IMG/VR virus record: IMGVR_UViG_3300020442_000005
Span: 124,001-188,000 of that record
DNA from: a virus
DNA: 64,000 nucleotides
Strand: one strand, 5' to 3'
Shown: positions 8,445-54,960 of the stretch, in pieces
How the letters are laid out: each line of letters opens with the position of its first letter
How positions within the stretch are numbered: the first letter of the stretch is position 1
Notes under the pieces: model-generated
Seen by the model: the letters and a program-made list of their open reading frames with translations, nothing else
Told to the model about the DNA's origin: nothing
Database searches by the model: none
Translations under genes and position numbers: made by a program

Positions 8445-8753
8445 ATGAAAATATCAAAAAGACAACTTAAAAGAATTATTAGAGAAGAAAAGGCCCGAAT
8501 CCTTGAAGAAACCAAGTCCTTTGACCGATCGGACGCTCACTACGTTGGCGGCGTAAAAATGACTGGACCAGGCGCTGATACTATTTTTGGCACAAAAAAG
8601 CGTGACGATAGATCGATCGAAAACAAGATCATGAGTATGGGCCCAGAACAACACCGCGATCTGATTGCTTTTATCTTTGAAAAAGCGCAATATACCTTAG
8701 GGCTTGACGGATTAGAGGATGCGATTGCAGAAGCTATGGATAAATTACGATAA
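8445..8753 (+). CDS. Tagged small protein, predicted capsid-internal (1)
   Basis: A 102-residue protein that begins with the shared basic module (MKISKRQLKRIIREE), followed by ILEE, a plausible (I/L)xE cut site near residue 22. The remaining 80 residues are hydrophilic with a helical C-terminal third, and I recognise no fold. The first 26 nt of the gene are identical to those of the gene at 46173. It is the first gene after the capsid terminator. I infer packaging in the head and removal of the tag by the gp21-like protease. Confidence 0.65.
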   Translation: MKISKRQLKRIIREEKARILEETKSFDRSDAHYVGGVKMTGPGADTIFGTKKRDDRSIENKIMSMGPEQHRDLIAFIFEKAQYTLGLDGLEDAIAEAMDKLR

Positions 8754-8763
8754 GAGTTAGAAA

Positions 8764-9174
8764 GTGAAAATTACAAGAAAACAGTTACGGTATATTATCA
8801 AAGAAGCTACTCGAAAAGGAAAATCTAAAAAGAGAGGTTTCAAGATAAAATTTGATATGGGTGATAAACTGGTGTGTCCTCACAGCCCAGAATCAATGCC
8901 AGCTGGTTTCGCTCATCCTCAAGGTCTTTCTGGTGTTATAAAACGAAAAGAAGTCTCGCGGGGTAAAGGTATCATGTACTATAAGCTTATCATCGGTGGA
9001 AAGACTTTTGAGGGCGAGTTTAGTGGTTATGGATATGCTTCACGCGGTATTGACGATTTTGGTCCATTTTCCATGAGACTTAAACAAGAACACCGAAACA
9101 TTCCAATGCCGTTGCATGAACCTCAAATAGTATTCGCCTGGGCAAATGGTGATTTAAAAATTTTTGATGTATAG
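8764..9174 (+). CDS. Tagged small protein, predicted capsid-internal (2)
   Basis: A 136-residue protein with a GTG start at a short spacing from the previous gene. It opens with the shared module (MKITRKQLRYIIKEA), whose IKE-A is a candidate cleavage site at residue 14. The rest looks like a small beta-rich domain (about 30-136) with Gly turns; residues FDMGDKLVCPHSP to KRKEVS resemble the barrel layout of SH3/KOW-like folds, but weakly. No enzyme motif is seen. Confidence 0.6.
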   Translation: MKITRKQLRYIIKEATRKGKSKKRGFKIKFDMGDKLVCPHSPESMPAGFAHPQGLSGVIKRKEVSRGKGIMYYKLIIGGKTFEGEFSGYGYASRGIDDFGPFSMRLKQEHRNIPMPLHEPQIVFAWANGDLKIFDV

Positions 9175-9185
9175 TGAGAAAAATA

Positions 9186-9581
9186 ATGAAAATTACAAAA
9201 AGACAACTTAAAAAAATTATTAAAGAAGAATACTCGCGGTTAAAGCAACAGGGTCTGATTACAGAAACGAGGATGTCATCAGGCAGATTAATTGTTAGTC
9301 AAGTTAATCAGCTTAAGCAAGCATATTTTATTCTAGATCCTGAAAGAAATTACGATCGGCAGTCTATAATAGAACAACAAAAAGTAGTTGAAAGACTTAA
9401 ATCAGAAATGAATCCACGAGATTTTAAAATTGCATCACGGATGGCAGATATATATGTTGAATACTTAGGAACTGATTTTGGAGGCGGTGGCAGGATGACG
9501 CCATACGAAGAGGCGTTGTTTGACGAGGCCGAAGCGCTTGGATCTAAGATTGGTGTATCTGCTCAAGTATTATTCAGGTAA
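9186..9581 (+). CDS. Tagged small protein, predicted capsid-internal (3)
   Basis: A 131-residue protein carrying the full-length form of the module: MKITKRQLKKIIKEEYSRLK, then QQGLITE at 21-27, whose I-T-E matches the gp21-type (I/L)xE consensus. I chose the ATG at 9186 because the module starts there; a GTG 12 nt upstream would add four residues. The remainder looks helical and has no motif I recognise. Confidence 0.65.
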   Translation: MKITKRQLKKIIKEEYSRLKQQGLITETRMSSGRLIVSQVNQLKQAYFILDPERNYDRQSIIEQQKVVERLKSEMNPRDFKIASRMADIYVEYLGTDFGGGGRMTPYEEALFDEAEALGSKIGVSAQVLFR

Positions 9582-9591
9582 GGACACCAAA

Positions 9592-9816
9592 ATGAAAATT
9601 ACAAAAAGACAGTTAAGACAGATTATCAAAGAAGCTACAAGCAAGGACCGGCTTGATTACGAGGCAGGTATTGACATGGGTTTTTCTGATTACAATAGAG
9701 ATATTAGAGATCGTGATTTATCAAAGCATAGTGAATCATTTCGCAAAGGCTATAGATATGGCTATAGCCAAGCAATGCGAATGGCTCAAGACTTTGATGA
9801 TGGTAATCCGTACTAA
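9592..9816 (+). CDS. Tagged small protein, predicted capsid-internal (4)
   Basis: The module (MKITKRQLRQIIKEA) with candidate IKE-A cut site at residue 14 is followed by only about 60 residues, which are rich in Asp, Tyr and Arg (repeated RYGYSQ and DRDLSKH-like pieces). The start at 9592 is chosen for the module and the AAGGA upstream; a longer frame exists but would read through the previous gene. The mature peptide would be among the smallest cargo candidates here. Confidence 0.6.
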   Translation: MKITKRQLRQIIKEATSKDRLDYEAGIDMGFSDYNRDIRDRDLSKHSESFRKGYRYGYSQAMRMAQDFDDGNPY

Positions 9817-9825
9817 GAGACTTTC

Positions 9826-10386
9826 GTGAAAATTACAAGACGTCAGATTAGACATGTTATCATGGAAGCATTACAACCAAAAATGTTACCTGATGGTTGG
9901 AAAATGCAGATACATGCTGGTGATTCTCTAAGTGCTGAGGGTCATTCTTTACTAGTGGTCCTTCTAAACAGTAACGGAAGAACTATAGGAAAAGTCGGCG
10001 CTGATAGGCATTGGACCGATAACCGTTGTATTGCAGACGTGTTTGAGGTTACAGGATCTGAAGTTCGTGGTGGTTATGGACCAACACTATATGATGTTGC
10101 AATAGAGTGGGCAACACTGAATGGTCTTGGATTGGTAGCAGACCGCTCAGGTGTGTCTGCAGAAGCAGAAAGAGTATGGCAAAAATATCTTACAGCCAGG
10201 CCCGATGTATCAGCTCACCGGTTACCTGATGGATATTGTGTTGGGCCCGAGGCAGAGTATGGCGGCGGAGAATGGTATCTTCACAGATACACAAAAGAGG
10301 AAAACCTAATTCCTGCTATGGCTAGATTTGGTCAGCTAGAAATAATATATGACGATGAAATTGAGGACATGAATCTGTACATGTAG
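9826..10386 (+). CDS. Tagged protein with possible GNAT-like domain
   Basis: A 186-residue protein with a GTG start. The module (MKITRRQIRHVIMEA) ends in IME-A at residue 14. The rest is a compact alpha/beta domain; around residues 75-120 the order ADVFEVTGSEVRGGYG then PTLYDVAIEWATLNGLGLVADRSG resembles the strand, glycine loop and helix of acetyl-CoA binding in GNAT acetyltransferases. The match is weak and no catalytic residue is certain. If correct, this would be a second tagged enzyme beside the ADP-ribosyltransferase at 50903. Confidence 0.55.
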   Translation: MKITRRQIRHVIMEALQPKMLPDGWKMQIHAGDSLSAEGHSLLVVLLNSNGRTIGKVGADRHWTDNRCIADVFEVTGSEVRGGYGPTLYDVAIEWATLNGLGLVADRSGVSAEAERVWQKYLTARPDVSAHRLPDGYCVGPEAEYGGGEWYLHRYTKEENLIPAMARFGQLEIIYDDEIEDMNLYM

Positions 10387-10400
10387 TCCTTAAATTAATT

Positions 10401-10428: not shown

Positions 10429-10447
10429 GTCTGCGTAACCAATAATT

Positions 10448-14674: not shown

Positions 14675-17600
14675 ATGGCTGAACAAACATTCAAAAGTGC
14701 AGGTTTTTTCGATTTCGAAACAGAAATAAGCCGGTCGACGTCAGCAGCATCAGGAGTTCCGCTCGCTGTTATCGGTACTGCAGAAAAAGGCCCTGCTTTC
14801 AACCCTGTTTATTTTGGTTTGCCCGCTGGCGCTTCAACAGTTGGAGAGCAGCTGCGCAACTTTACCGAAAAATTTGGAAGTATCAGTCCCACACAATTTG
14901 GTCCATATGCTGTTAAAGCTTGGTTCGAACAGGGAGTGAGTTTTTCAAACATTACTAAATCTTGTCAATACCTTCGTGTTCTTGGTGCCGGTGCTAACTC
15001 ACAGCCTGGCGACTTCACAAACACCGGAACATACGGAATAGTTAAGTCTGCCGGGTTTAAGGTTAATCACCCTAATCCTTTTGCGTTGCTCGACGGTGCA
15101 GGAGGGCCATCAGTTAGTGGCGATCACCGTATTACTCACGGTGGCCAAAGATCAGTTCCAGGTACAACATATTTCTTGGCAGCAAGACATGAAGTACCAG
15201 CTACATCGGACACAGCGCTTCCACACTTTACTGATAACGATTCATTTAAGGGCGTTTCGTCCTCTGGTGCAGATGACGTTAACCTCATTAGAGCAATGAT
15301 TTTCACGCCAACTGGATCTGCATTATTAGTGGCTGACTATGATTCCGTTAATATTGAAACTCCAACAAATGGTATTGGCGCAGGAATTTTTGCAGCTGGA
15401 CAAGCTGGTTTGGCTTCTGGATCGGTTTCAACTAAATCAACTAGTTTATTTAAGCTGCTTGTTTCATCATCTGACGGAGCTACATTTGCTACAACCGATG
15501 GAAATGCTGGAGTTAAAATATTTACATGCTCATTAAATCCAGATGAAGATGAATATATCGGAAACGTTTTGAATACGGATCCACTTCTCATGGCTTCTCA
15601 AGGACATTATCTATACATTGATTGGCCTGTAACAAACGTTGTTGCTCCGGTAAAAACTGATATCTCTACGATTGCTTTATTGTCAGGATCTTCAGAAGAT
15701 CCAGGTGTTGGACTGTCAGCAGCTGATGATGTACCGGCAACGTTGTTAAACCAGTATCAAAACATGTTTGGAAGATTTGATACAAGATACAGTACTGCAA
15801 AAACACCGTACATCATTTCACAACCATTTGGAAAAACAGAGCATAACTTGTTTTACTTTGAAAATCTTTCTGACGGTGCCGCTGGAAACACAAACTATTA
15901 TATATCGATAGAAAACGTAAAAGCATCAACAGACCCAGCCAATTTGTATGGAACGTTTGACGTTGTTCTTCACTCATTTCCCGATACTGCTGGAGCAACA
16001 TCAATTCTAGAACGTTACTCTAGAGTAAGCCTAAATCCGGATGCTAAAAACTATATCGGTAAAGCAATCGGCGATTTCAAATCAACATACAACTTTGATA
16101 CTACTGTAGATAAAAGAAGATTCTCTAACTCTGGTGCAAATCCATTAAAATCTAACAGAATCCGAGTTGTCGTTGCTGAGAGTGTAAAAAGAAAATTGAT
16201 TCCACCGATTGCATTGCCATTTGGTTTCCGTGGTATTCCTACAATTAAGACATCGCCATCCATAAGAGATTGTGGTTCAGCCTCAGACGCTGAAGCGGCT
16301 GTTACAGAAAACATCGCCTTGGGTGACGTACCAAGGCTTGCACCGTTCTTTACCGGTTCGATTGCTGATTTTGCTGCCAATGATATAAAGGTAAAAGCCG
16401 GTCTGACCGGTTCGATTGTGCCTCCATTGCCTTTCCGGTTTAAGCAAGCTAAAACAGGTGACCTTAAGTCATCTCCTTCGTTTATTGGTCAGCCTGGTCC
16501 TCAAACTGCGACAGATGCAACATTGAACTGGGGCGTGCAATTTGAAAACCAAAGATCTGAGACAAAACCTTGGGAAGCAGGCAGTGCTGACTTGGATCGA
16601 ACAAACGGTATTATCAAATCATATGCTAAGTTTCAGGGTATCTCAAAGCTAAACACCGTTTATACCGGATCAGCTGTAGATAAATTTAATAACAATAAGT
16701 TTACGTTAGCAAGAGTTGCGCTAGTAAATCAGTTAAATGCTACTAACCCGTTACAAGACATCACCGGTTCGGCTTCCGATCATATCAAAGATGCAGCATA
16801 CATTCGTAACGGCGTGGTCGATGGTGCTGACTATACTGTATATGATAGAGTGCTCGATGGTGATCGTATATCACTTGCAACGCTGTTAGCAAAAGATAAA
16901 AAGAAATACAACAAGTTTTCTTCATATGCCAAGTTCAATACTATATTTTATGGTGGATTTGATGGTTTAAATATTTTTGACCGCGACGCGTATGAAATGA
17001 ACGATAAAGCTAGCTCAACAGAGGCTGGCGGCTTTGCTCGTGACATTGTCGGAGGAACCGGAATCACAGGTTCTGATAACGGCACTCTTATGGGTAAGGG
17101 AATAAACAACAGTATTATTCAGTCATACCGTTCAGCAATCGATATTATTAATGATCGATATCAGTCAATACACCACATATTGAACATTCCAGGTATACGT
17201 GAACCATTAATCACCGATTACGCTTCTGAAAGAACAGAAGATTATCAAATGGCCATGTATGTAATGGATATTCCAAACTACGATGAATCTGGTAACCGAC
17301 TATTTATTGACAGTACCGTTGTTCCATCTGTTGTTAAAACTGTAAGCAAGTTTGAGGCAAGAGACTTAGACAATAGTTATACTGCGACATATTTCCCAGA
17401 TGTAATAATCGACGATCCAATTAACGGTAATCGAAGAACAGAAGTTCCGGCATCGATCGCCGCTGTGACTGCATACTCCTACAGTGATTCATCAAAAGGT
17501 GGCTCTGTATGGTTTGCACCAGCTGGTTTTGACAGAGGTTCTTTGAGCCCGGTTAAAAATACAACAGTACGCCTGACGACACTAGACCGTGACGATTTGT

Positions 17601-18022
17601 ATGAAGCAAAGATCAATCCAATCGCAAACTTCCCCGTTGTAAATCCAGGTTTTGTCGAGTATAAAATTTGGGGCCAAAAAACATTGCAACTTAGACAATC
17701 CGCGTTGGACAGAGTAAACGTGAGAAGAATGTTACTTGAAGTAAAAAGACAAATCCTTCAGATATCACGTCGACTCTTGTTTAAGCGCAACAACCCGCAG
17801 CTTCGCACAAGATTCATCAGTGCTCTTTCGCCAAAATTATCTTTTATACAATTGAATCAGGGAATTGAGTCGTTTAGAATAATTATGGATGATAGTAACA
17901 ATACTGCGTTAGACCAAAAAAATTACAAACTAAACGGAAAGGTAATCATTGTGCCAACAAGAACGATTGAATTTGTTAGTATTGATTTTATTATTGATCC
18001 AGACGGCGTAACATTTCAATAA
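14675..18022 (+). CDS. 18: Tail sheath protein, paralog A
   Basis: A 1115-residue contractile sheath protein, much longer than T4 gp18 (659). The N-terminus has SGVPLAVIGTAEKGPAF (about residues 28-44), typical of sheath handshake domains. The C-terminal third has YGGFDGLNIF, IPGIREPLITDYA, SVWFAPAGFDRG and the closing strand region GKVIIVPTRTIEFVSIDF that joins neighbouring subunits. The middle (about 90-480) is an enlarged surface part. It is followed 20 nt later by a second sheath gene with the same landmarks. Confidence 0.9.
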   Translation: MAEQTFKSAGFFDFETEISRSTSAASGVPLAVIGTAEKGPAFNPVYFGLPAGASTVGEQLRNFTEKFGSISPTQFGPYAVKAWFEQGVSFSNITKSCQYLRVLGAGANSQPGDFTNTGTYGIVKSAGFKVNHPNPFALLDGAGGPSVSGDHRITHGGQRSVPGTTYFLAARHEVPATSDTALPHFTDNDSFKGVSSSGADDVNLIRAMIFTPTGSALLVADYDSVNIETPTNGIGAGIFAAGQAGLASGSVSTKSTSLFKLLVSSSDGATFATTDGNAGVKIFTCSLNPDEDEYIGNVLNTDPLLMASQGHYLYIDWPVTNVVAPVKTDISTIALLSGSSEDPGVGLSAADDVPATLLNQYQNMFGRFDTRYSTAKTPYIISQPFGKTEHNLFYFENLSDGAAGNTNYYISIENVKASTDPANLYGTFDVVLHSFPDTAGATSILERYSRVSLNPDAKNYIGKAIGDFKSTYNFDTTVDKRRFSNSGANPLKSNRIRVVVAESVKRKLIPPIALPFGFRGIPTIKTSPSIRDCGSASDAEAAVTENIALGDVPRLAPFFTGSIADFAANDIKVKAGLTGSIVPPLPFRFKQAKTGDLKSSPSFIGQPGPQTATDATLNWGVQFENQRSETKPWEAGSADLDRTNGIIKSYAKFQGISKLNTVYTGSAVDKFNNNKFTLARVALVNQLNATNPLQDITGSASDHIKDAAYIRNGVVDGADYTVYDRVLDGDRISLATLLAKDKKKYNKFSSYAKFNTIFYGGFDGLNIFDRDAYEMNDKASSTEAGGFARDIVGGTGITGSDNGTLMGKGINNSIIQSYRSAIDIINDRYQSIHHILNIPGIREPLITDYASERTEDYQMAMYVMDIPNYDESGNRLFIDSTVVPSVVKTVSKFEARDLDNSYTATYFPDVIIDDPINGNRRTEVPASIAAVTAYSYSDSSKGGSVWFAPAGFDRGSLSPVKNTTVRLTTLDRDDLYEAKINPIANFPVVNPGFVEYKIWGQKTLQLRQSALDRVNVRRMLLEVKRQILQISRRLLFKRNNPQLRTRFISALSPKLSFIQLNQGIESFRIIMDDSNNTALDQKNYKLNGKVIIVPTRTIEFVSIDFIIDPDGVTFQ

Positions 18023-37204: not shown

Positions 37205-37546
37205 ATGTTGCTAACAGAATCCAGTTTAAGAAGAATCATTCGCCGTGCATTGATTGAAGCCAAAGATCAAAACTCCGATGGAAAAAACGATTTTAGAGAC
37301 GTCAAGATTGCTCGAATGAAAGCATCAGGAATGTCACAAAAACAAATCAAGGCAAAGCATGCTGATTTGTATGAAGACGAAGAAGAAGTCGATTTAGAAG
37401 ACGATGCTTTATTAGTTGAACCGGACATGACATCTGAAGATGAGCGTAATCAAGAGGTTGATGAAATGTCAACGTTGGCTGGTGGTGCAATCAGAGGTTT
37501 TCAAGCTCCTCTTGGTTACGACAACAAAAAAATGAAAGGTTATTAG
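37205..37546 (+). CDS. Divergent tagged protein with Ca-binding-like loop
   Basis: A 113-residue acidic protein. Residues 1-20 (MLLTESSLRRIIRRALIEAK) look like a divergent copy of the basic module with LIE-A as a candidate protease site. Residues 21-32 (DQNSDGKNDFRD) fit a DxNxDGxxDxxD calcium loop like those of EF-hand and dockerin-type proteins. An acidic stretch (EDEEEVDLEDD) follows. It is preceded by AAGGAGAAACTA. It lies apart from the other tagged genes, in the replication region. Confidence 0.55.
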   Translation: MLLTESSLRRIIRRALIEAKDQNSDGKNDFRDVKIARMKASGMSQKQIKAKHADLYEDEEEVDLEDDALLVEPDMTSEDERNQEVDEMSTLAGGAIRGFQAPLGYDNKKMKGY

Positions 37547-45683: not shown

Positions 45684-45706
45684 TTAATAACAATGGAGTT
45701 ATTCGT

Positions 45707-46171
45707 ATGTCGACATCAATTTTAAAATGGGTTCACATGCACAAAGCATACGTGGAGTGGTTTCACTCCGCGCACTTGTTATCAAAGGGATCAAGTTTTG
45801 CTGGTGACCATGTAAATCTTTATGGAAAAATATACCAAGAAGCTTTTGAGCAATACGACGGTATTATAGAACGTGTGATTGGTATTACAAACAACGAAGA
45901 TTGCGCCTGTCCATCTAGTATCAATATGGGTGCATTGGGTATTTTACAAAAGTACCCATCTCCATCAAACGTTCCTGCCTTGAATATTGCTACGTCTGCA
46001 TTGCAGCTCAACAAAGACTATTGTCATTTTTTGAATGACCTTGTTTTAAATCTTAGGCAATCAGGAAAAATTACTTTGGGAACAGAAGATTTAATCGCTG
46101 GAACATGTAATACTATTGAAGGGTATACTTATTTGTTGCAGCAACGCGTCAAAGAATCAATTGGAGTTTAA
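45707..46171 (+). CDS. Dps/ferritin-like protein (tentative)
   Basis: A 154-residue helical protein with ribosome binding site TGGAGTTATTCGT. His23 and His35 are 12 residues apart with SKGSSF between, and Asp51 and Glu55 lie in DGIIERVIGI. This echoes the Dps ferroxidase layout (H-x11-H, then DxxxER). The usual Asp four residues after the second His is Tyr39. A second helix pair (GTEDLIAGTCNTIEGYTYLLQQRV) fits the C-terminal helices. It would bind iron or protect DNA. It comes just before the tagged cluster. Confidence 0.5.
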   Translation: MSTSILKWVHMHKAYVEWFHSAHLLSKGSSFAGDHVNLYGKIYQEAFEQYDGIIERVIGITNNEDCACPSSINMGALGILQKYPSPSNVPALNIATSALQLNKDYCHFLNDLVLNLRQSGKITLGTEDLIAGTCNTIEGYTYLLQQRVKESIGV

Positions 46172-46172
46172 A

Positions 46173-46574
46173 ATGAAAATATCAAAAAGACAACTTAAGA
46201 GAATCATCAGAGAAGAATACTCACGCCTCAAGAGTCAAGGACTTATCAACGAAATGTCGGGTGTTGCATTTCCAGATCCGGAATTAGAGCAAGATACTCC
46301 GTATGATCGACTTATGGATGGTGCAGAAAATGAACCATACGATGGATACGTAGAAAAAATGGCACTTGCCCATGTTGAGAGCCAAGCTGGTAGATTAAAC
46401 TTTGATGAATATGCAGACTTTGCTTGGGATTATGGATACCGAACTGATGACGACTTAGATCAACTTGAAGAATGGTGGGAAGCAGCAATCGAGGAAAGTC
46501 GTGGTTATTCCTTCCGCGATTCTTTTGGCGATGGATATGGCCCTGGAGAGCGAAGACCGACAAGGCGAAGATAA
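46173..46574 (+). CDS. Tagged small protein, predicted capsid-internal (5)
   Basis: A 133-residue protein starting with MKISKRQLKRIIREEYSRLK and SQGLINE, whose I-N-E (residues 25-27) suits the gp21-type protease. The cargo part is acidic, with Asp/Glu/Tyr/Trp-rich helices (YADFAWDYGYRTDDDLDQLEEWW) and an Arg-rich end. I chose the ATG at 46173, where the module begins; the longer frame would intrude on the previous gene. It shares one base with the next gene (TAATG). Confidence 0.65.
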   Translation: MKISKRQLKRIIREEYSRLKSQGLINEMSGVAFPDPELEQDTPYDRLMDGAENEPYDGYVEKMALAHVESQAGRLNFDEYADFAWDYGYRTDDDLDQLEEWWEAAIEESRGYSFRDSFGDGYGPGERRPTRRR

Positions 46575-46951
46575 TGAAAATTACAAGAAGAAAATTAAAG
46601 CAGATTATCGAATCCGTTATGAACGAAGCTGTTCAAGATCCAGAATATGACAGAGAATATGACCTTGTTCAAAATAACATTAAAACACAACGTGGTTTTC
46701 TAGGATTTGCAATGCGAAGTTTGGAATCTAGTTATGGAAATCGATTTTATAATCATGGAAGGGGCAACATTGGAATATATCTTACACTTATAGGACAACA
46801 CGTAAGAGATGGACAAGACTCAAGAGGTGGCACCGTCGAAGGTCATATCGCATCAATAGAAGGCAAGCTCGCAGAATATCCCGATCTTCTCACACCAGCA
46901 GGGCGAGGACGACTGGATGCGTTGCTGGACCACTTAAAACAAAACTATTAA
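46574..46951 (+). CDS. Tagged small protein, predicted capsid-internal (6)
   Basis: A 125-residue protein. The module MKITRRKLKQIIESVMNEA carries MNE-A as a possible cut site (residue 18). The rest is helical (GFAMRSLESSYGNRF, LTLIGQHVRDG) with no known motif. The start at 46574 is where the module begins, directly after the previous stop. Confidence 0.65.
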   Translation: MKITRRKLKQIIESVMNEAVQDPEYDREYDLVQNNIKTQRGFLGFAMRSLESSYGNRFYNHGRGNIGIYLTLIGQHVRDGQDSRGGTVEGHIASIEGKLAEYPDLLTPAGRGRLDALLDHLKQNY

Positions 46952-46965
46952 TCAGGGGAAAACGA

Positions 46966-47232
46966 ATGAAAATTACAAGAGCAAAATTAAAGCGGATTAT
47001 TCGTGAAGAAAAAGCACGCATTTTCGAGATGCATCACGGGCGTCCTCATGGAGATTTGGATAGTCTCGTTGAAGACACTCTTGAATATATTTCAGATGGT
47101 GCCTTTTCTAATGGTATGCAGATAGTACAATATGTTCGAGATGCAGGTCGCGATTATGGCCTTTCTGCAAGTGATCAGGATAAAGCAATTGCAAGAATTA
47201 TTAACGGTATGATGGCTGGCCCAAGATTTTAG
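46966..47232 (+). CDS. Tagged small protein, predicted capsid-internal (7)
   Basis: An 88-residue protein with a clear AGGGGAAAACGA ribosome binding site. The module (MKITRAKLKRIIREEKARIFE) has IFE-M at about residue 21. The cargo is about 65 residues, probably two or three helices (VEDTLEYISDGAFSNGMQIVQYV), with no family recognised. Confidence 0.65.
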   Translation: MKITRAKLKRIIREEKARIFEMHHGRPHGDLDSLVEDTLEYISDGAFSNGMQIVQYVRDAGRDYGLSASDQDKAIARIINGMMAGPRF

Positions 47233-47241
47233 GAAAATAAA

Positions 47242-47757
47242 ATGAAAATATCAAAAAGACAGCTTAAGAAGATAATACAAGAAGAATACATCGCCTTGAA
47301 AAGACAGGGTTTAATTACTGAATACGGTCTTGGCGATGAGTTTGACGGAATGCGCAATCCAGGCAGACGTGCACAAGATAGATCTATACCCGGAAGTATT
47401 GCTCGGGTTGATTGGATTAAACTCCACCATGACCCTTATTATGATAATAACCCACCAGAATGGCTCGGAAACCCAAAAGAAGAGTTGGATGCATTCCTTG
47501 ACTTAATAATTTCTGCCGAGCTTGAGAATGTACTGGATGGCTTAGGAATGTCAGAACTATATAGACCAGCGATGGATGAGATCGACTACGAAGGAATTTT
47601 CCACGGCGGCAAAACAATCATGAAAATACTTGAAAATGTTTTTCCTTATTCTGATGGTTCATATTTATACAGAGCCTTAGAAAGATGGGCTGCTGAGCAT
47701 ACAAGTTCAGGAAAAATACATTCTGGCGAAATCCGGTATACCCAGCCGCAGAGATGA
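47242..47757 (+). CDS. Tagged small protein, predicted capsid-internal (8)
   Basis: A 171-residue protein with the full module: MKISKRQLKKIIQEEYIALK then RQGLITE (ITE at 25-27). The cargo looks compact and helical with a polar N-terminal part (DEFDGMRNPGRRAQDRS) and an ALERWAAEH helix near the end. It overlaps the next gene by 4 nt. Confidence 0.65.
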   Translation: MKISKRQLKKIIQEEYIALKRQGLITEYGLGDEFDGMRNPGRRAQDRSIPGSIARVDWIKLHHDPYYDNNPPEWLGNPKEELDAFLDLIISAELENVLDGLGMSELYRPAMDEIDYEGIFHGGKTIMKILENVFPYSDGSYLYRALERWAAEHTSSGKIHSGEIRYTQPQR

Positions 47758-48161
47758 TAAACGTAATGAGCAAGATATTAACAAAAGCCTTTTGGGATTC
47801 TGTATGGAATTGGTGTAAGATCAACTGGAAATTTCTTGTTGGTTTTGCAATACCCTGTATTTTGCTGATTGCGGTTAATAGACGTAAGGCATTCAAGTTG
47901 CTTGAAAAAGGCATTGAGTTCCGTAATCAACAGTTAGATGTAGCACAGAGAGCTTCGGATCTCGAGTCCGATGGGAAGGTCAAGAACGCTAAGGAATTTG
48001 CTGATCGTGTAGAGGAGGTGACAACCAGACACGAGGAGGCTCTTCGCAAGCTTGGTGAAAACGTCCAAGACCGGCGTGAAGAATTGGGTGGGTCTGATGC
48101 TGCTGTTGTAACGGACGCTTTGGCGGATCGCTTTAATTTGAAGAATGGAGACAACAAGTGA
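47754..48161 (+). CDS. Membrane-anchored coiled-coil protein
   Basis: A 135-residue protein with one membrane segment at about 26-42 (KFLVGFAIPCILLIAVN) and a long charged coiled coil after it (about 45-120). The ATG at 47754 overlaps the previous stop; an ATG at 47766 is the alternative. This could be a spanin- or holin-related protein, given the endolysin at 49417, or an inner-membrane anchor. It is not tagged, although it lies within the tagged cluster. Confidence 0.55.
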   Translation: MINVMSKILTKAFWDSVWNWCKINWKFLVGFAIPCILLIAVNRRKAFKLLEKGIEFRNQQLDVAQRASDLESDGKVKNAKEFADRVEEVTTRHEEALRKLGENVQDRREELGGSDAAVVTDALADRFNLKNGDNK

Positions 48162-48835
48162 ATGCTAAAAAACTAAGAAAAATTATCGCTGAAGAGTTAG
48201 CGGTTATCTCAAAATCAGCAATTGACGACACTGTAATGAATATTCTAAGTGATGAAGGTGGCGCAGCTGGACTCGATCCAATCGAAAAAGCTTTAAAAGA
48301 TTTAGAAAACGATCAGATGGAACTTCCGGAAGAAAGTATCGAAGAATTAATATCAAGTGTTGCAGGCGTTAAACGCCATCGCGATGGTGACTATATAGAC
48401 ACAACTCAACTTGAAGGAAAAGCATATTTTACAAAACGCAGATTAAATCAGATAGTCAAAGAAGAATACAAACGCTTAAAGGATGAGGGACTAATATCAG
48501 AAACCTTTAAAAGTAAGTCAACTTTTGGCGGCAGATCCCCAGAATATAAAATGCGAATGCCTAAGTTGTACGGTACACAAATGCAAGATGCAAGACGGGG
48601 TAACCGACTACCACCAGAAAGTTCAAATTGGTTTAGATTTGCAAAACATTTGGATATCGGTATACTAGATCTAGATGAAGTAGCACATGAACTTCGTTTT
48701 AAAAATTTTGAACACATGGACGCAGCTGTGTCACCACGTGGTCTAAATCAATCAGAAGCTGATCGAGTTGCTGATATAATGTATGATTTATACATGATTG
48801 AAGATATCGATGTATACGACGCTTTGGAGAAATAA
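48158..48835 (+). CDS. Tagged protein with a second internal tag copy
   Basis: A 225-residue protein with a GTG start overlapping the previous gene by 4 nt. It starts with a divergent module (MNAKKLRKIIAEELAVI) and has a second copy inside (about 91-115: FTKRRLNQIVKEEYKRLK then DEGLISE). Between them is a short acidic linker domain. The internal copy and its ISE site suggest a fusion of two tagged genes, or two cleavable cargo parts in one polyprotein. The C-terminal part is helical and not recognised. Confidence 0.6.
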   Translation: MNAKKLRKIIAEELAVISKSAIDDTVMNILSDEGGAAGLDPIEKALKDLENDQMELPEESIEELISSVAGVKRHRDGDYIDTTQLEGKAYFTKRRLNQIVKEEYKRLKDEGLISETFKSKSTFGGRSPEYKMRMPKLYGTQMQDARRGNRLPPESSNWFRFAKHLDIGILDLDEVAHELRFKNFEHMDAAVSPRGLNQSEADRVADIMYDLYMIEDIDVYDALEK

Positions 48836-48838
48836 AAA

Positions 48839-49366
48839 ATGAGTATATCAAAAAGAGAAATCAGGCGAATAGTAGAAAAATCATCTTGTGGTCGGCGCCG
48901 TGTACGAGAAATGGACGATGCGGCACCTGGAATCGGTACGTCATACGAAGACGTTCGTGAACTAGCCAAGTATCACGCTCTTAATGGCGACAAAGACCAA
49001 ATGCTTTATCGCGATAACCCTGATTACAAAGATGCATATGATGAAATGACAATGAAGGAATCTAAAATAAATTTACGACTTAGAACAAAAATTAGACGTC
49101 TTACCGAATCGATGAAAAACCTTTACGGTGACATACAGAATGAAATACTGTATATTGGCCAAGAGCAGGGCGGTGAAATAGTTGTGCAAGATGTCGTTGA
49201 TTATTTGCAAAATTATGCAAATGACCCATTGGGAGATCCGCGAGCTGATTATGTTAGTAGCATGCCATATGAAGAAGTACGGCAAATAATGTTTGATATG
49301 GTTGACGCCGGAATGCTTACCGATGGCTATGAAGATTTCTTCTATGTCCATCCGGACTACATGTAA
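48839..49366 (+). CDS. Divergent tagged protein
   Basis: A 175-residue protein. The start MSISKREIRRIVEKSS is a divergent copy of the module and lacks a clear (I/L)xE site nearby. The cargo is acidic and helical, with a Tyr/Asp-rich end (TDGYEDFFYVHPDY). It follows the previous gene at a 3-nt gap. No motif is recognised. Confidence 0.5.
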   Translation: MSISKREIRRIVEKSSCGRRRVREMDDAAPGIGTSYEDVRELAKYHALNGDKDQMLYRDNPDYKDAYDEMTMKESKINLRLRTKIRRLTESMKNLYGDIQNEILYIGQEQGGEIVVQDVVDYLQNYANDPLGDPRADYVSSMPYEEVRQIMFDMVDAGMLTDGYEDFFYVHPDYM

Positions 49367-49416
49367 TATGCGGCTGCAGGCCCGTTAGAGACTGCAAAAT
49401 ATAAAAGGAAATAAAA

Positions 49417-50313
49417 ATGGCTGTTGACAAAGAGTTTTATAACGAAGCATCGGCTTCAAAGCTTGGCTGGGAACCTGAATGGTTTATTCCCGGCCATAAT
49501 CTTTTTGATAAAAAATTAACAAAAGCTATCAAAGAATGGCAAACCACACGTGGTCTGTATGCTGACGGCATGTGCGGACCTGGTACGTTTCGACATATCA
49601 ATGCTGAAATAGAATCACAGCGTGAGCTAGACGCTTTAGGTTGGGTATCAGATTCTTCAGATGTAATTTGGTGGGGAGATAAGCCCATAAAGATCGACTG
49701 GCCTTCTAACAAGGTACACACGTTTAAGGATGAAGGTTTTCCTTATCCTATTAGCAAGGGCGTTACAAAAAACTCTCGTAAAAGAAAGATTAATTCTTTC
49801 GTGACGCATTGGGACGTATGCCTTAGTTCCATGAGCTGCGCAAAAGTTCTAGCCAAGCGTAATGTATCCGTGCATTTCTGTATTGACAACGATGGCACGA
49901 TCATTCAGCTTCACGATCTTAATGACTCTTGTTGGCATGCTGGCAACAGCAAAGTAAACCGTACAAGTGTCGGCGTTGAGATTTCAAACGCATATTATCA
50001 AAAATATCAAGGATGGTATAAAAAGAACGTAGGTAAGGAAAGACCAATCATGTCTGGTGCGTTAGCACAGAATAAACCTCTTAAAGACTTTACTTGGTTC
50101 TACCCAGAACAGATTGAGGCTCTTAAAGCCTTATACAAAGCAATCCACGAGGGATGTGATGTGCCTCTTCAGTCTCCGGCAAATAAGTGGGCTTTCGATA
50201 GCTCGGCAGCTGGTGGAAGCTGGAAAGGTTTTATGAATCACTTTCACTGTTCAAAAAAGAAGATTGACTGTGGTGGATTAGATATTGAAAAACTTTTAGA
50301 AGAAATTAAATGA
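49417..50313 (+). CDS. Endolysin: N-acetylmuramoyl-L-alanine amidase
   Basis: A 298-residue lysis enzyme that cuts the bond between MurNAc and the peptide. Residues about 20-65 (AIKEWQTTRGLYADGMCGPGTF) look like a peptidoglycan-binding domain. The catalytic amidase_2/T7 lysozyme-type domain follows: H131 in VTHWDV, then HFH with H276 and C284 eight residues apart, as in T7 lysozyme (H122, C130). Its ribosome binding site is AAAAGGAAATAAAA. It lies among the tagged genes but has no tag itself, so it is likely a lysis protein. The last 4 nt overlap the next gene. Confidence 0.88.
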   Translation: MAVDKEFYNEASASKLGWEPEWFIPGHNLFDKKLTKAIKEWQTTRGLYADGMCGPGTFRHINAEIESQRELDALGWVSDSSDVIWWGDKPIKIDWPSNKVHTFKDEGFPYPISKGVTKNSRKRKINSFVTHWDVCLSSMSCAKVLAKRNVSVHFCIDNDGTIIQLHDLNDSCWHAGNSKVNRTSVGVEISNAYYQKYQGWYKKNVGKERPIMSGALAQNKPLKDFTWFYPEQIEALKALYKAIHEGCDVPLQSPANKWAFDSSAAGGSWKGFMNHFHCSKKKIDCGGLDIEKLLEEIK

Positions 50314-50885
50314 AAATTACAAGAAGACAACTAAGAAGAATTATCAAAGAAGCAAGTGCTTCGTACGGTGAAAGATTGTATCGCGATATTGTTGGACACG
50401 AATTCCAACCGGATTATGTGTATCGACCGGTCCAACAGATGATGGGCCAGGCCCAACCTCAAAATCTAATAAAGTATCGTTCAGTCAACGAGGTAATGAA
50501 AGCAATTGCAAATTACTATCGTAAGAAATATGGACCAGATGATGCAAAAGCTTACATTCGTGCTAATCCAACCATTATAGATTTTTTAGAAAATGATTCT
50601 GAAGCTTTAAAAAGTATGCATCCCAGACGTTTTGGAGGAGATTCGTTTGGAAGACCTGGAATCTTATATTACAGCCCCTCTGAAATTAGCCTTTCATGGG
50701 GTAACGTGGATGCAGTTGCTGAGGCTGGTCAAGATTTCCAACGGCTCCCGGGAGACCTTGCACAGATTGCAGAACAATTATACAATGAAGATCGATTACT
50801 TCCCGCGTTTTTACACTTGATCACCGGTACACAGCCAAGAAATCATGTCAATCGCGCCAATGGTTACGGAAGTATTTCAAACTAA
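50310..50885 (+). CDS. Tagged protein, predicted capsid-internal (9)
   Basis: A 191-residue protein that starts inside the endolysin stop. The module (MKITRRQLRRIIKEASASYG) has IKE-A at residue 14. The cargo of about 170 residues has a helical middle (AKAYIRANPTIIDFLENDSEAL) and a polar C-terminal half; no catalytic pattern is recognised. The coupling to the endolysin gene may be accidental. Confidence 0.6.
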   Translation: MKITRRQLRRIIKEASASYGERLYRDIVGHEFQPDYVYRPVQQMMGQAQPQNLIKYRSVNEVMKAIANYYRKKYGPDDAKAYIRANPTIIDFLENDSEALKSMHPRRFGGDSFGRPGILYYSPSEISLSWGNVDAVAEAGQDFQRLPGDLAQIAEQLYNEDRLLPAFLHLITGTQPRNHVNRANGYGSISN

Positions 50886-50902
50886 TAAGGAAGATAAACA
50901 AA

Positions 50903-51760
50903 ATGAAAGCAAACTCTGCGCGCAAGTTAAGACATTTGGTTCGTCGTATCATCGTAGAATCACAAAGCTTGGATAATCAGATTCTCAGTAGATCTGATTA
51001 TATGCGTGGATTGATGTTATTTATTGAAAATAACCCGGGAACTACTACAGACGAAATGTTTGATTCTCCGGTTGCAAATGCAATTATTCCAATTGGTATA
51101 AGAGAAAGAGCAATATTGCTTTGGGTAAAGAAGCTAATCAAGGATGGTTTTATTATTTCAAAAAGATATAGGCTTTATTCAACTGGCAAAGCAGATTATG
51201 TAAATCACAATGTTGTTTTAGAAAACGTTATTATGGAAAGCGCCAAGTTCTCAAGTTATGATGCTTTCACAAGACAGGAAAATCTTGACCTTCGAATGAT
51301 GGAACATGATAAAGGTCATATCGATCTAGAAAACAATTCTGCAATTGCGAAAGCTTTTCAAGTATATTCGGAAACAACAACAGTTTCTTTGTTTCGCGGA
51401 ATATACAACACCGAAACACGGATGCTTTCAAATATGCAGCCAGGCGACACATTCCAATTTGGTCGTGTAACTTCACTATCAGAAAACTTTGAAATTGCAA
51501 AAAAGTTTGCAATAAATAAAAAAATCGTTGAGCTAGTACCAGGCACGAAAGGTTGTTTTAGTTTTGTCGATTTTCTGGTCGACTACTATGATGGATGGAA
51601 GCGAAAGGATCCTATGGACTACGAAATGCAGGATGGTGAATGGCGCAAAGGATCGGCGGAAAGAGAGGCCGAATGGTTCGTATCCGGGGATACACAATTT
51701 CAGCTTTTAGACGTTGCAGAAAGAGATGGAATGACCGTGTACAAGATCAAAACTCTTTAA
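50903..51760 (+). CDS. Tagged ADP-ribosyltransferase, Alt-like effector
   Basis: A 285-residue protein. Residues 1-20 (MKANSARKLRHLVRRIIVES) resemble the basic tag with IVE-S as a cut site. Residues about 30-100 look like a winged helix (ERAILLWVKKLIKDGFIIS). The C-terminal part has the three ART signatures: FRG (Arg165), TSLSENFEIAKKF (STS-like, 190-202) and EREAEWF with E255-x-E257. ADP-ribosyltransferases transfer ADP-ribose from NAD to a protein target. In T4, Alt is packaged, processed and injected to modify host RNA polymerase. This gene looks like its counterpart in the tagged family; the target is unknown. Confidence 0.68.
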   Translation: MKANSARKLRHLVRRIIVESQSLDNQILSRSDYMRGLMLFIENNPGTTTDEMFDSPVANAIIPIGIRERAILLWVKKLIKDGFIISKRYRLYSTGKADYVNHNVVLENVIMESAKFSSYDAFTRQENLDLRMMEHDKGHIDLENNSAIAKAFQVYSETTTVSLFRGIYNTETRMLSNMQPGDTFQFGRVTSLSENFEIAKKFAINKKIVELVPGTKGCFSFVDFLVDYYDGWKRKDPMDYEMQDGEWRKGSAEREAEWFVSGDTQFQLLDVAERDGMTVYKIKTL

Positions 51761-51769
51761 AATAATACG

Positions 51770-51797
51770 TATAAATACTCTTACTAATGGTTATAAT
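51770..51797 (+). promoter_or_regulatory. Bipartite promoter, TATAAA-N16-TATAAT
   Basis: TATAAATA at 51770 and a perfect TATAAT at 51792, starts 22 bp apart, in the gap before the methylase gene. The start would be 29 bp before the ATG at 51821. Confidence 0.7.
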
Positions 51798-51820
51798 AGA
51801 GAAAATCATTAGGAGTTTTT

Positions 51821-52786
51821 ATGATCAATTATCTTTATCGGCCAACAAACCTGCAAGTCTCCAGTAAAATCGTTCATCAAGGCGATAGGGTGCCATTTAA
51901 GTGGGCCGGCGCTAAAAATAGGATGTTTAAAAAATACATTTCAACTGGATTCTTTCCGGCAAAGCAACCAAAAATATTTGTTGACATGTTTGCAGGTACT
52001 GGTGCGGTTGGACGTTGGATAGCTCAAAATTATCCAAATACGACGGTAGTTCTAAACGAAACTTGTGGTGAATTAGTTGGTATGTATAAACAGCTTAAGA
52101 CCAAGAATTATAATGCGTTCATTGCAGCATATAGTAAGCATGTTAAAGCATATGCAAGTTATTCTACTGTTGAAGATCGTAAAAAATATTATTACGGTGT
52201 TAGAAACCAATACGCGTTATCCTATCAAAACATGACTCCAGCAGAAGAAGCTGCAGCTCTTTTCTATATGCTACAAACGGGCTTCAATGGAATATGGCAG
52301 ACATCAGACAACTTTAACAATAGATACGCGTCGCCCGCTGGACTAATGACTTGGAAGCCTTCTGGCGATCTATTTGATATTAATAGAATAAAAAAATATT
52401 CAGAGTTTATTGATCGCTGTGTATTACTTAATGATGACTTTGAAGCAACTTCGTGCTTTATGGGTTCCGATACCTGGTTTTATGCTGATCCACCATATCG
52501 TGTTTCAAAAGCAAAATATGCATCAGCAGGTGATTTTACAAACAACGATCAAATTAGATTATGTAATTTTCTTAATGATGCACACAAGGCAAATGATATG
52601 TGTTCAATGAGCAACAGAGAAGATTCAGATAAGCAAATTGGAAAAGAAGTTGGTACAATAACTAAGGGTTGGTTTGCTGATAAATTTAACGATGACTGGA
52701 ATGTTTCGTATTATGATGTTAAATACACAGCTGGCCGACACAACTTAGGTCAAAAAGGAAAAGAAGTTCTTATTAAAAATTATTAA
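51821..52786 (+). CDS. dam: Dam-type N6-adenine DNA methyltransferase
   Basis: A 321-residue enzyme of the D12/Dam class. PFKWAGAKNRM is motif X, FVDMFAGTGAVGRW the AdoMet-binding motif I, and YADPPYRVSKAKYAS the catalytic motif IV (DPPY near 222-225). It transfers a methyl group from AdoMet to adenine in DNA, probably protecting phage DNA from host restriction. Its own promoter lies upstream and the ribosome binding site is TTAGGAGTTTTT. Confidence 0.83.
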   Translation: MINYLYRPTNLQVSSKIVHQGDRVPFKWAGAKNRMFKKYISTGFFPAKQPKIFVDMFAGTGAVGRWIAQNYPNTTVVLNETCGELVGMYKQLKTKNYNAFIAAYSKHVKAYASYSTVEDRKKYYYGVRNQYALSYQNMTPAEEAAALFYMLQTGFNGIWQTSDNFNNRYASPAGLMTWKPSGDLFDINRIKKYSEFIDRCVLLNDDFEATSCFMGSDTWFYADPPYRVSKAKYASAGDFTNNDQIRLCNFLNDAHKANDMCSMSNREDSDKQIGKEVGTITKGWFADKFNDDWNVSYYDVKYTAGRHNLGQKGKEVLIKNY

Positions 52787-52797
52787 ATGGAGTCAAA

Positions 52798-53550
52798 GTG
52801 ATATTTGATCTTTACGGTGATGGAATAGGCACAGTAGAATACGTACAACACATGGGCGAAGACATAACTATTGTGAACAGCGCAAGAGTTAGCTTTGGAA
52901 AACACAAGGAGACGATGGATGAAAAAGACAGAAAACTTATCAGATATCTCATCAAGCACAGACACACATCAACCCTCGAACACAATATTGCTACGTTTAG
53001 GTTTGTGGTACCTCTGTATGTGCGTAGCCAGCACCATCGTCATAGAACTTGGTCTTATAACGAAATTAGTCGTCGATATACTGCAGAAAATTTGAGATTT
53101 TATGAGCCACAAAAATTTAGAACACAACACAAATCAAACCGACAAGCCTCCAATCATGATGAGTTGGATCCGATTATGGGATACTTTGAAGATGGCGGAC
53201 CTAACTACGCAAGCGCATCTATTAGAAGTCATCATCGCAACAGTGTATGTTTATACAACTCATTAATGGAAAAGGGCGTATGCAGGGAACAGGCAAGAGG
53301 CGTTTTGCCACAGAACATGTACACCGAATATTATGGAACAGCTAACTTAAATAATCTTCTAAAATTTTGCGGGTTGCGTCTTCATGATGGTGCGCAGCTT
53401 GAAATACAAAAAGTTGCTGAGGGTATAATTGGCATATGCAAAAATCTTTGGCCTATCACAATCGAAGCATACATTGCTAGTTTGGAAGACCGAGCACTAG
53501 CTGAAAGGCTAGAAAATATCGAGATTATTAAGGCCAAACCGCATAATTAG
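52798..53550 (+). CDS. thyX: Flavin-dependent thymidylate synthase ThyX
   Basis: A 250-residue enzyme with a GTG start and TGGAGTCAAA before it. The ThyX signature RHRTWSYNEISRRY is present (about 79-92), and TLEHNIATFRF precedes it as in the family. It makes dTMP from dUMP using FAD and methylene-tetrahydrofolate. The thymidylate-synthase-fold protein at 63508 is a dCMP hydroxymethylase, so ThyX provides the dTMP activity. Confidence 0.88.
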   Translation: MIFDLYGDGIGTVEYVQHMGEDITIVNSARVSFGKHKETMDEKDRKLIRYLIKHRHTSTLEHNIATFRFVVPLYVRSQHHRHRTWSYNEISRRYTAENLRFYEPQKFRTQHKSNRQASNHDELDPIMGYFEDGGPNYASASIRSHHRNSVCLYNSLMEKGVCREQARGVLPQNMYTEYYGTANLNNLLKFCGLRLHDGAQLEIQKVAEGIIGICKNLWPITIEAYIASLEDRALAERLENIEIIKAKPHN

Positions 53551-53608
53551 AAATAGAGTTTTCTTTTGTTGTGCGTTGCGTATCTACATTTATTTTAGGG
53601 GATATCCT

Positions 53609-53932
53609 ATGACCGGTGATAATAATGGATGGAATGAATATTCACGTATGGTTTTAAAAGAGCTCGAAGTATTGGCCGCTGGAATCAATGGCTTAAAAAC
53701 AGAAATCGAAGGTTTAAAACGTGAGATTACAGAGATGAGAGCAAGAGAAGACAAAGTTTCAGAATTGGTTGATTGGAAAAAAAGAGTCGATGAAGTCGCG
53801 TCACCATCTCAATTGAGAGACTTACAGGACCAAGTATCAGCTCTTCAAGACTTTAAAATAAAGGCAACCACAGCATTTATTGCAGCCCAGATGGTCGTTG
53901 CAGGTGCTTTTACATTGTTAAAGCTAATCTGA
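53609..53932 (+). CDS. Small coiled-coil membrane protein (holin-like?)
   Basis: A 107-residue protein. I start it at the ATG at 53609, after TAGGGGATATCCT; an upstream TTG would add 11 residues. NGWNEYSRMVLKELEVL is followed by a charged coiled coil (about 20-80) and one C-terminal membrane segment (about 86-107, FIAAQMVVAGAFTLLKLI). The layout resembles small holin or haemolysin XhlA-like proteins. It has no tag. Lysis function is a guess. Confidence 0.55.
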   Translation: MTGDNNGWNEYSRMVLKELEVLAAGINGLKTEIEGLKREITEMRAREDKVSELVDWKKRVDEVASPSQLRDLQDQVSALQDFKIKATTAFIAAQMVVAGAFTLLKLI

Positions 53933-53982
53933 CACATACTTATATACTGAAATGCTAAATCGATATTTTTAAAGGAGCTATC

Positions 53983-54279
53983 ATGAGAATATCAAAAAGA
54001 CGCTTACGCATGATTATTAAAGAAGAATATACAAAACTTAAAAGACAAGGGTTGTTGAGTGAATCTAGATTCAGCAGCAGAGGATCTTCGTCTAGATTAA
54101 CAGTATCTCAGCTCAGAAGACTGATCAGAGAAGCGCTCGATGAAGAAGATGATTCTGAAGAGGAAGATGATAAACCAGGTCCGGGTGAGGACGCTGAGGG
54201 CCGAATGGGTGCTGGTGATCCTAAAAACGCAAAGAAAAACCCAAGAAAGAAAAAACCCAAAGCGCAAGACATGAGATAA
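53983..54279 (+). CDS. Tagged protein with two tag copies
   Basis: A 98-residue protein. MRISKRRLRMIIKEEYTKLK then RQGLLSE (LSE at 25-27) is followed by a second short copy near 40-52 (LTVSQLRRLIREALDEE, RE-A). After that come an acidic part and a highly basic end (KNAKKNPRKKKPK). The ribosome binding site is AAAGGAGCTATC. Two tags in tandem point to duplication or shuffling of the module. Confidence 0.6.
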   Translation: MRISKRRLRMIIKEEYTKLKRQGLLSESRFSSRGSSSRLTVSQLRRLIREALDEEDDSEEEDDKPGPGEDAEGRMGAGDPKNAKKNPRKKKPKAQDMR

Positions 54280-54301
54280 ATCCTTCAATCCGGAGAAACC
54301 A

Positions 54302-54652
54302 ATGAGAATATCAAAAAGACATCTTAAAAGAATCATCAAAGAAGAATATACAAAATTAAAACGCCAAGGACTTATTAGTGAAGGTTTTCGCGATATGCGC
54401 GGTGGCCATGGCCGTCAAATGAGCTTGCAAGATTACGAAGAGCAAGACCCAAACATGATGGAAGACAATTATGACGCTGCAGTGGAAGAGTGTATGGCTG
54501 CTATTCCAGGAATGATGAAAAAGATTATTTCAATGGGAATGGGACACACTGTAATGAATGACATTTATCATATCTGCGCGCCAATCTGCAAAAGCTACGG
54601 CGTTGATGCTGACGAAGTTTCAGAAGAAATTATGGAAAGACTTGGATACTAA
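54302..54652 (+). CDS. Tagged small protein, predicted capsid-internal (10)
   Basis: A 116-residue protein with the full module: MRISKRHLKRIIKEEYTKLK then RQGLISE (ISE at 25-27). The cargo has an acidic helical part (DNYDAAVEECMAAIPGMMKK) and a small Cys-containing segment (CAPICKSYG). Ribosome binding site: CGGAGAAACC. No enzyme family is recognised. Confidence 0.65.
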   Translation: MRISKRHLKRIIKEEYTKLKRQGLISEGFRDMRGGHGRQMSLQDYEEQDPNMMEDNYDAAVEECMAAIPGMMKKIISMGMGHTVMNDIYHICAPICKSYGVDADEVSEEIMERLGY

Positions 54653-54654
54653 AG

Positions 54655-54960
54655 ATGAAAGTGACCAAGAGACAGATAAAGCGTATTATTCGTGAAGAAT
54701 ACAATAAGATGCGTAGAGAACAGCGTATTGTTACTGAAAGCTATTTTAAAAACCTTTTAGTAGAAATAGAGGATCATCTTTTGTATTTGGCTGACATGCA
54801 TGCCGGTAGTGTACCTATTGAAAAGGTTGTACGGCCATTAAAAAGAAAGTTTAAGCATTTCTCTGGAATGACAAGGGCTACAGTTTTTGCAGAGCTTATG
54901 GAAATGCAGCCCTATTTTAGCGTGATACGGATTGATGGTGACAACATAATTTCTTACTAA
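54655..54960 (+). CDS. Tagged small protein, predicted capsid-internal (11)
   Basis: A 101-residue protein with the module (MKVTKRQIKRIIREEYNKMR then REQRIVTES, with VTE as a possible cut site). The remaining 75 residues look like a mixed helical domain (VEIEDHLLYLADMHAGSVPIEKVV). It starts 2 nt after the previous stop. Confidence 0.65.
   Translation: MKVTKRQIKRIIREEYNKMRREQRIVTESYFKNLLVEIEDHLLYLADMHAGSVPIEKVVRPLKRKFKHFSGMTRATVFAELMEMQPYFSVIRIDGDNIISY

Follow-up and report, generated by a model that had tools for sequence, protein, structure and literature searches.

In phage T4, a diverse set of proteins is known in which only a targeting sequence is conserved (PMC3012670), and in the internal protein IPIII the first ten residues constitute the required capsid-targeting sequence (CTS; PMC9026906). 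The protease gp21 of this phage cleaves after L/I-X-E (PMC9026906). An N-terminal peptide that probably serves the same end in an expanded form is encoded many times in the stretch of DNA analysed here (the window), which comprises 64,000 nucleotides (bases 124001–188000) of the 273,025-base IMG/VR virus record IMGVR_UViG_3300020442_000005. The likeness to the T4 CTS system (IPI-III, Alt and gp21) lies in a short N-terminal peptide that ends in (L/I)xE and precedes diverse cargo (PMC3012670, PMC9026906, PMC9958956), and in the presence in both of a gp21-type protease and of an ADP-ribosyltransferase among the cargo; it is a likeness of form. However, the T4 CTS has about 10 residues and sits on few proteins, whereas the tag described here has 14–28 residues and sits on about 23 open reading frames (ORFs) of one genome. 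Also unlike the T4 CTS, the tags fall into two classes across the phage group and can occur several times in one protein.

In phiKZ and SPN3US, a gp21-related protease likewise cleaves several inner head and ejection proteins behind a Glu motif, and SPN3US gp53 and gp54 are paralogues with an identical 15-residue N-terminus (PMC5694885). Several of these propeptides, however, exceed 100 residues, and the portions of that account drawn on here describe no tag spread over many proteins (PMC5694885). The phiKZ motif is S/A-X-E (PMC9026906), as against [IL]xE in the system described here, which goes with a T4-type and not a phiKZ-type head. Polyvalent phage proteins resemble what is proposed here for the tagged proteins in that they are packaged and injected and have host-directed domains, ADP-ribosyltransferase and GNAT domains among them (PMC5512222, PMC7824862), both of which are described as phage host-take-over factors (PMC7824862). 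Polyvalent proteins are multidomain, whereas here many small proteins each carry an address and multi-tag fusions are rare, two or more tags (two to four) being found in 13 of 433 tagged proteins. A search of the open-access literature by topic found no description of such a tag system; when the tag strings were searched in the same literature, the first class gave no match and the second only an unrelated one.

A recurrent N-terminal tag in one genome and its relatives

The tag was represented by a profile (A2) of 24 columns, built from 90 diverse tags that include some from the window's own genome, with which all 242 ORFs of at least 50 aa in the window were searched. The 14 genes that the original prediction had listed as clear carriers all lie at the positions given for them, begin with the motif and take ranks 1–14, with whole-protein E-values from 1.1e-12 to 0.0044. 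Both endings that had been described are seen: in the long form, GLI[TNS]E or GLLSE reaches its end with residue 27; in the short form, I[KM]E|A closes the tag at residue 14 (the bar marks the predicted cut). The 14 cargoes behind the tags give no mutual BLAST match at E≤0.1, and what is common to these otherwise divergent proteins is a short, propeptide-like N-terminal stretch. A degenerate pattern for the start of the tag has 9 matches in the window (0.17 expected); over the whole record, a strict start pattern has 14 matches and its reversed control none. At E≤1e-3 the profile matches the record at 24 places, which belong to 23 ORFs and to six regions; at E≤10 there are 31 matches. The earlier count of about 18 tagged proteins is therefore low for this genome. 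Two of the 24 are internal tags, in the genes at 48158 and 53983.

The tagged genes of the window, clear and divergent, lie on the + strand, as do its protease, capsid and two small head-cluster genes. Long-form tags are carried by the genes at 8445–8753 (102 aa; predicted site RILE|E at residue 21 or ILEE|T at 22), 9186–9581 (131 aa; LITE|T at 27), 46173–46574 (133 aa; LINE|M at 27) and 47242–47757 (171 aa; LITE|Y at 27), and short-form tags, each with the predicted site IIKE|A, by those at 8764–9174 (136 aa, GTG start), 9592–9816 (74 aa) and 50310–50885 (191 aa; at E 1.1e-12 the best profile match of the window). Tagged cargoes are further encoded at 9826–10386 (186 aa, GTG start; VIME|A), 46574–46951 (125 aa; a variant tag with VMNE|A at 18, profile E 2e-4), 46966–47232 (88 aa; RIFE|M at 21), 54302–54652 (116 aa; LISE|G at 27) and 54655–54960 (101 aa; IVTE|S at 28). 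Two proteins are double-tagged. In that at 53983–54279 (98 aa), a tag with LLSE|S at residue 27 is followed by a second one, matched at residues 42–58; in that at 48158–48835 (225 aa), the N-terminal match is weak (0.042) and the strong match is internal (residues 92–111, domain E 3.1e-5), with the end LISE|T. The halves of the latter match two separate proteins elsewhere (L010, L111), each with its own tag, and by its sequence the protein looks like a fusion of two tagged cargoes. Four successive tags, each ahead of a different stretch, are found in an ORF of 418 aa at L097:3696-4949.

Four further genes had been proposed as divergent carriers. The one at 2392 does follow in rank (15; E 0.0059), but is a head-cluster gene, as described below; the other three are not significant, i.e., those at 37205–37546 (113 aa; ALIE|A at 18, E 1.2), 48839–49366 (175 aa; a doubtful tag, E 2.2) and 50903–51760 (285 aa; IIVE|S at 19, E 4.2), the last of which encodes a predicted Alt-like ADP-ribosyltransferase with a divergent extension. 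A stretch behind the tag of 37205 recurs in a well-tagged protein (L066). This gene contains a DQNxDGKNDFxDV-like stretch that is common to tagged proteins of other contigs and has, by eye, the appearance of an EF-hand loop.

Other loci were fetched with a degenerate DNA pattern for tag residues 1–14, at least one tag per locus fitting it; because this pattern fixes most of these residues, the conservation of the core is partly built in. The pattern occurs in at least 116 stretches of viral contigs, and in 257 billion bases of prokaryote genomes in only 8 stretches, on five contigs of metagenome-assembled genomes (MAGs); one tag-bearing MAG contig is equal in size to an IMG/VR virus contig. 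From the fetched loci 317 unique tagged ORFs were read with a regular expression that left residue 14 open (E, Q, A, K or R); 311 of them have at least 45 aa, and 288 remain once similar cargo is removed. Under a relaxed motif, 501 unique proteins form 333 cargo clusters, 253 of them singletons. A second tag class, MxLLREYIRxLLxE|[STA], was observed by regular expression in 35 ORFs of 78–563 aa, a few of them doubtful and some with enzyme domains; L066, L105, L113, L115 and L154 are among its carriers. The system is thus larger than the original prediction had it, and includes a class of tags that the prediction did not contain.

Among seven further phage records, that of the cultured relative Flavobacterium phage immuto (vB_FspM_immuto, host Flavobacterium sp. 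LMO8) has one profile match (E 1.5e-6), in protein immuto35A_190 (MKKSQLRQIIKEA), whose N-terminus reads MKKSQLRQIIKEALDAS. This protein corresponds to L140:487-1245; phages of Sinorhizobium, Methylophilales and others have proteins that match parts of it. The uncultured LR756508 has twelve matches at E≤10, four of them at E≤1e-3, and Microcystis phage Mel-JY01 a single weak one (E 0.056). A 27-residue tag compared with INPHARED by tblastn found nothing at E≤10, a search that is insensitive for so short a query and that missed one isolate whose tag the profile detects.

Predicted cut sites, the prohead protease and the head genes

Residues 12–14 of the tag (IKE/IRE) already form a gp21-type site, and the presence of another one further on goes with the identity of residue 15. 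The comparison concerns residues 15–28, which lie beyond the fetching pattern, and leaves aside 21 of the 288 tags, those with a residue 15 other than Glu, Ala or Ser. A second [ILM]xE with its Glu at 20–28 is present in 153 of 199 tags in which residue 15 is Glu, as against 4 of 68 in which it is Ala or Ser (Fisher p 1.6e-26). Over the wider range of 17–30, a site is found in 162 of the 199 tags with Glu15 versus 48.5 ± 5.6 after shuffling of residues 16–32, and in 28 of 76 tags with A, S, G, T, C or N at residue 15 (mostly at 18–19) versus 15.5 ± 3.1 in shuffles. Because the tags are related, this one-cut pattern was also examined within loci, where the Mantel-Haenszel odds ratio is 45 (26 informative loci), after tags had been merged by their residues 1–13 (53/16 versus 3/39, p 1.2e-13), and in 48 held-out tags, in which the second site is present in 23 of 30 with Glu15 versus 1 of 11 with Ala/Ser15 (p 1.5e-4). 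The held-out set, from which sequences with residues 21–60 identical to earlier ones had been removed, includes one head-cluster gene (L189) and MAG contigs; its contig PBIO01000025 is equal in size to an IMG/VR record already used (G016). Such a site is found in 112 of 668 untagged control ORFs. Judged against shuffles and untagged controls, the tag does end at a gp21-type L/I-X-E site.

Of the 175 long-form sites ([ILMV]xE), 123 have Leu at P3, and 76 have one of the three commonest P1' residues, Gln, Ser and Ala. A comparable site, [VILA]L[RK]E|A/S/Q with its Glu at residue 59–71, is present in all 17 distinct capsid proteins of tag-bearing phages; the corresponding sites elsewhere are IVSE|A in immuto, LISE|A in Mel-JY01 and LLKE|A in LR756508. 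The window's own major capsid protein, of the gp23 type (6393–8372; phrog_138, E 5.7e-73), has its predicted cut VLRE|A after residue 59, where LRE-A had been reported. The predicted tag cutter is the gp21-type prohead protease encoded at 1400–2011, an assignment already made in the original prediction and confirmed by a match to phrog_207 (E 1.7e-49); its identity to the protein annotated as prohead protease in Flavobacterium phage immuto is 48.6%.

The co-occurrence of tag, protease and capsid gene was surveyed in 30 contigs of at least 59.6 kb, namely those of this size among 80 listed matches of the fetching pattern. The gp21 family phrog_207 is present in 15 of the 30 tag-bearing contigs, including all 13 of at least 142 kb, and the T4-type capsid family phrog_138 is present in exactly those 15 and in the window's record (16 of 31). 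A gp21-type protease thus accompanies a gp23-type capsid protein in the window and in 16 of 16 capsid-gene records, with no capsid gene found without a protease. The original prediction had held that frequent occurrence of the module in genomes without a gp21-like protease would speak against it; the 15 contigs that lack the protease, among them G014 and G016 (28 and 24 tag matches at E≤10), also lack the capsid gene and are read as lacking the head module. Separately, G002, G006 and G017 were each seen to have two T4-type capsid genes near each other in one record.

A link between tag and head genes is seen next to the protease itself. A small gene with a start like MKLTKSDLKQIVKECLVEILSEG (by regular expression) follows the protease, within about 1 kb, in 60 of 80 protease loci. 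The window's copy, at 2392–2838, encodes a small conserved head-cluster protein with the tag-like N-terminus MAKVKRSVLKQLIKECLVEILVE|G, matched by the profile at residues 9–24. When the cargo-tag profile was run against the 1189 ORFs of these 80 loci, its best matches were two kinds of small post-protease gene, the 14 matches at E≤0.01 comprising 11 of the first kind and 3 of a second kind (LTPxILRRIIxEEKxKL); no row of the profile has the signature of either. The second small head-cluster gene of the window (2898–3173) is a weak copy (profile E 8.4, not significant), and genes near this position in some relatives begin LTPxILRRIIxEEK. Both small genes sit in the window between the protease and an acidic 579-aa ORF at 4606, which has no PHROG match and is presumed from its position to be the scaffold gene. 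The 2392 protein, counted as cargo in the original prediction, is thus rather the product of a conserved head-cluster gene, and we propose that it is a prohead-core protein and a possible source of the address. The simplest reading of the sequences is that the cargo copies the docking end of core proteins, though descent may have run the other way or the likeness be convergent.

The cargoes

A set of 104 of the 288 cargo-distinct tagged proteins, all complete and of at least 120 aa, was scanned against Pfam and PHROG; at E≤0.01, 21 Pfam families and 14 PHROGs are matched, each by one member, and no more than 21 of the proteins have a Pfam match and no more than 14 a PHROG match. For the Alt-like protein encoded at 50903, the match is to phrog_832, the T4 Alt family (E 2.9e-8), of the ADP-ribosyltransferase type; it matches no Pfam family at E≤0.01. 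ADP-ribosyltransferases lead the fold search made with its low-confidence model (pTM 0.42; TM 0.17–0.42), and a sequence search of solved structures with the Alt-like pair gave no match. The homologue in G012 (L161) lacks the N-terminal extension of the 50903 protein (MKANSARKLRHLVRRIIVES), which argues for a removable module. The AlphaFold model of the 9826 protein has a pTM of 0.76, with pLDDT below 50 for residues 1–18, the tag, and a better modelled body, for which the fold search points to a GNAT-like fold (best E 0.008, none at or below 0.001). No close relatives of the 9826 and 50903 cargoes were found in viral contigs; most of the relatives of the 9826 cargo carry the second tag class, and the same cargo thus occurs under different tag classes. 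The protein at L115:3331-4455, which would be an unexpected cargo of the virion, has a second-class tag and a phosphatidylserine decarboxylase domain (PF02666, E 9.6e-17).

The ten recognised cytosolic enzymes of the window (RecA, an exonuclease, a DnaB-type helicase, ribonucleotide reductase, ClpP, two methyltransferases, ThyX, Fpg and DNA polymerase III alpha) all start without a tag; Fpg (55027) does match the profile weakly (E 0.013), but at residues 204–212. Elsewhere in the window, two adjacent very long ORFs (14675–18022 and 18043–21741) appear by eye to encode related tail-sheath proteins.

Explanations and what the tag may mean

In the explanation that we consider likely, the module is a capsid-targeting propeptide and belongs to an expanded T4-like capsid-targeting and cleavage system. 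The basic N-terminal helix (MKITKRQLRRIIKE...), which is like the N-terminus of the small head-cluster proteins, would dock the tagged protein into the scaffold core during head formation. The gp21-type protease would then cut after [IL]xE, at residue 14 if the next residue is Ala or Ser and otherwise usually after the second site at residues 20–28, and the freed cargo would remain in the head alongside the DNA. On the precedent of T4 Alt and the internal proteins, the cargo may pass into the host when infection begins and serve there in take-over or against host defences. The sequences establish a shared module, a cut-site pattern, its match with the capsid site, co-occurrence with the protease, resemblance to head genes and exchange between cargo and tag; of the cargo-loading system originally proposed, they bear out that unrelated cargoes of protease-bearing T4-type phages have an exchangeable N-terminal address, which includes a gp21-type cut site. 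We infer docking, cleavage and packaging of the tagged proteins from these features. Delivery of the cargo into the host is probable in the light of T4, injection together with an effector function being the least certain part. A wider version is put forward more tentatively: the tags might constitute a general cargo-loading code, in which a prohead-core-like address is set on injected effectors of dozens of kinds, an open-ended set whose members are rapidly exchanged. At least two classes of address (MKITKRQLRRIIKE and MxLLREYIRxLLxE) could then serve to distinguish cargoes by their place or copy number, and multi-tag chains would be split by the protease into single effectors.

The cargo might instead consist of structural or DNA-condensing internal head proteins that are targeted to the head and cut, and are not injected effectors. 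This would suit the many scanned cargoes without a known family and the similar N-termini of the small head-cluster genes, but the extreme variability of the cargo (333 clusters among 501 proteins) is unlike that of structural parts, and enzyme-like domains occur in it (the Alt-like ADP-ribosyltransferase, the weak GNAT-like fold and, under a second-class tag, phosphatidylserine decarboxylase), which makes this alternative rather unlikely. A tag that is never removed, acting as a helix that docks onto head or other assembly factors and having [IL]xE ends that merely belong to this helix, would agree with the [IL]xE that the core residues 1–14 hold in long forms too; given the either/or pattern of the two sites and P1' residues that resemble the capsid-protein site, this alternative seems very unlikely. 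It is hardly credible, finally, that the module was spread by duplication or recombination and has a role unrelated to heads, e.g., in targeting to the host membrane or elsewhere, or as a translation leader. Tag codon choice is indeed more alike than codon usage predicts (0.56–0.70 versus 0.37–0.46 within genomes, 0.56 versus 0.37 between them), but the constraint is seen at the protein level, with Glu14 in 288 of 288 tags (though the fetching pattern favours Glu14), class-2 tags differ in sequence yet have the same end, the tag resembles head genes, and the six phiKZ-type records searched, of seven found, gave no tag-profile match at E≤10. Import into a phage nucleus and a family of coiled-coil paralogues were considered as well and set aside.

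Several observations weigh against the capsid-targeting explanation. RM378, Mosig, P-SSM4 and LR756511 have no profile match at E≤10, and among 22 protease-selected records of at least 40 kb (three already-counted ones aside) the tag is matched at E≤1e-3 in 9 and not in the other 13; the tag is therefore read from these sequences as a feature of part of the phage group, unless other members use diverged tags. A second site is missing from 46 of the 199 long-form tags. Cargo bodies have a slight shortage of [IL]xE (observed/expected 1.02 versus 1.12 in controls), so slight that exposure of the cargo to the protease gains no independent support from it. The G012 homologue of the Alt-like protein does without the extension, Foldseek TM-scores are low for the cargo models, and part of the immuto cargo resembles a 602-aa phiM12 protein near a primase gene, with no obvious head context. 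A literature search listed no proteomic study of the virions of phiM12 or of the nearest isolate. The T4-type late promoter TATAAATA occurs 7 times in the window (5.05 expected), which gives no support, and a promoter scan confined to 45500–55200 gave 38 matches versus 28.5 in shuffles, with no late promoter recognised.

In all, the system is a greatly expanded variant of the T4 CTS, in which the scale, the sequence class, two types of address, multi-tag proteins and the link to the N-termini of head-cluster genes are new. If the capsid-targeting explanation is true, the tag would be a sequence handle for probable virion-borne, perhaps injected, proteins among the orphan genes of T4-type giant phages, and hundreds of candidate proteins can be listed by a simple pattern. 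The T4 internal-protein scheme would then be scaled up several-fold in these phages, with a head-core protein suggested as the possible origin of the address, and the tags would be natural ones for loading proteins into phage heads. The question of what giant phages inject besides DNA would thereby become directly testable.

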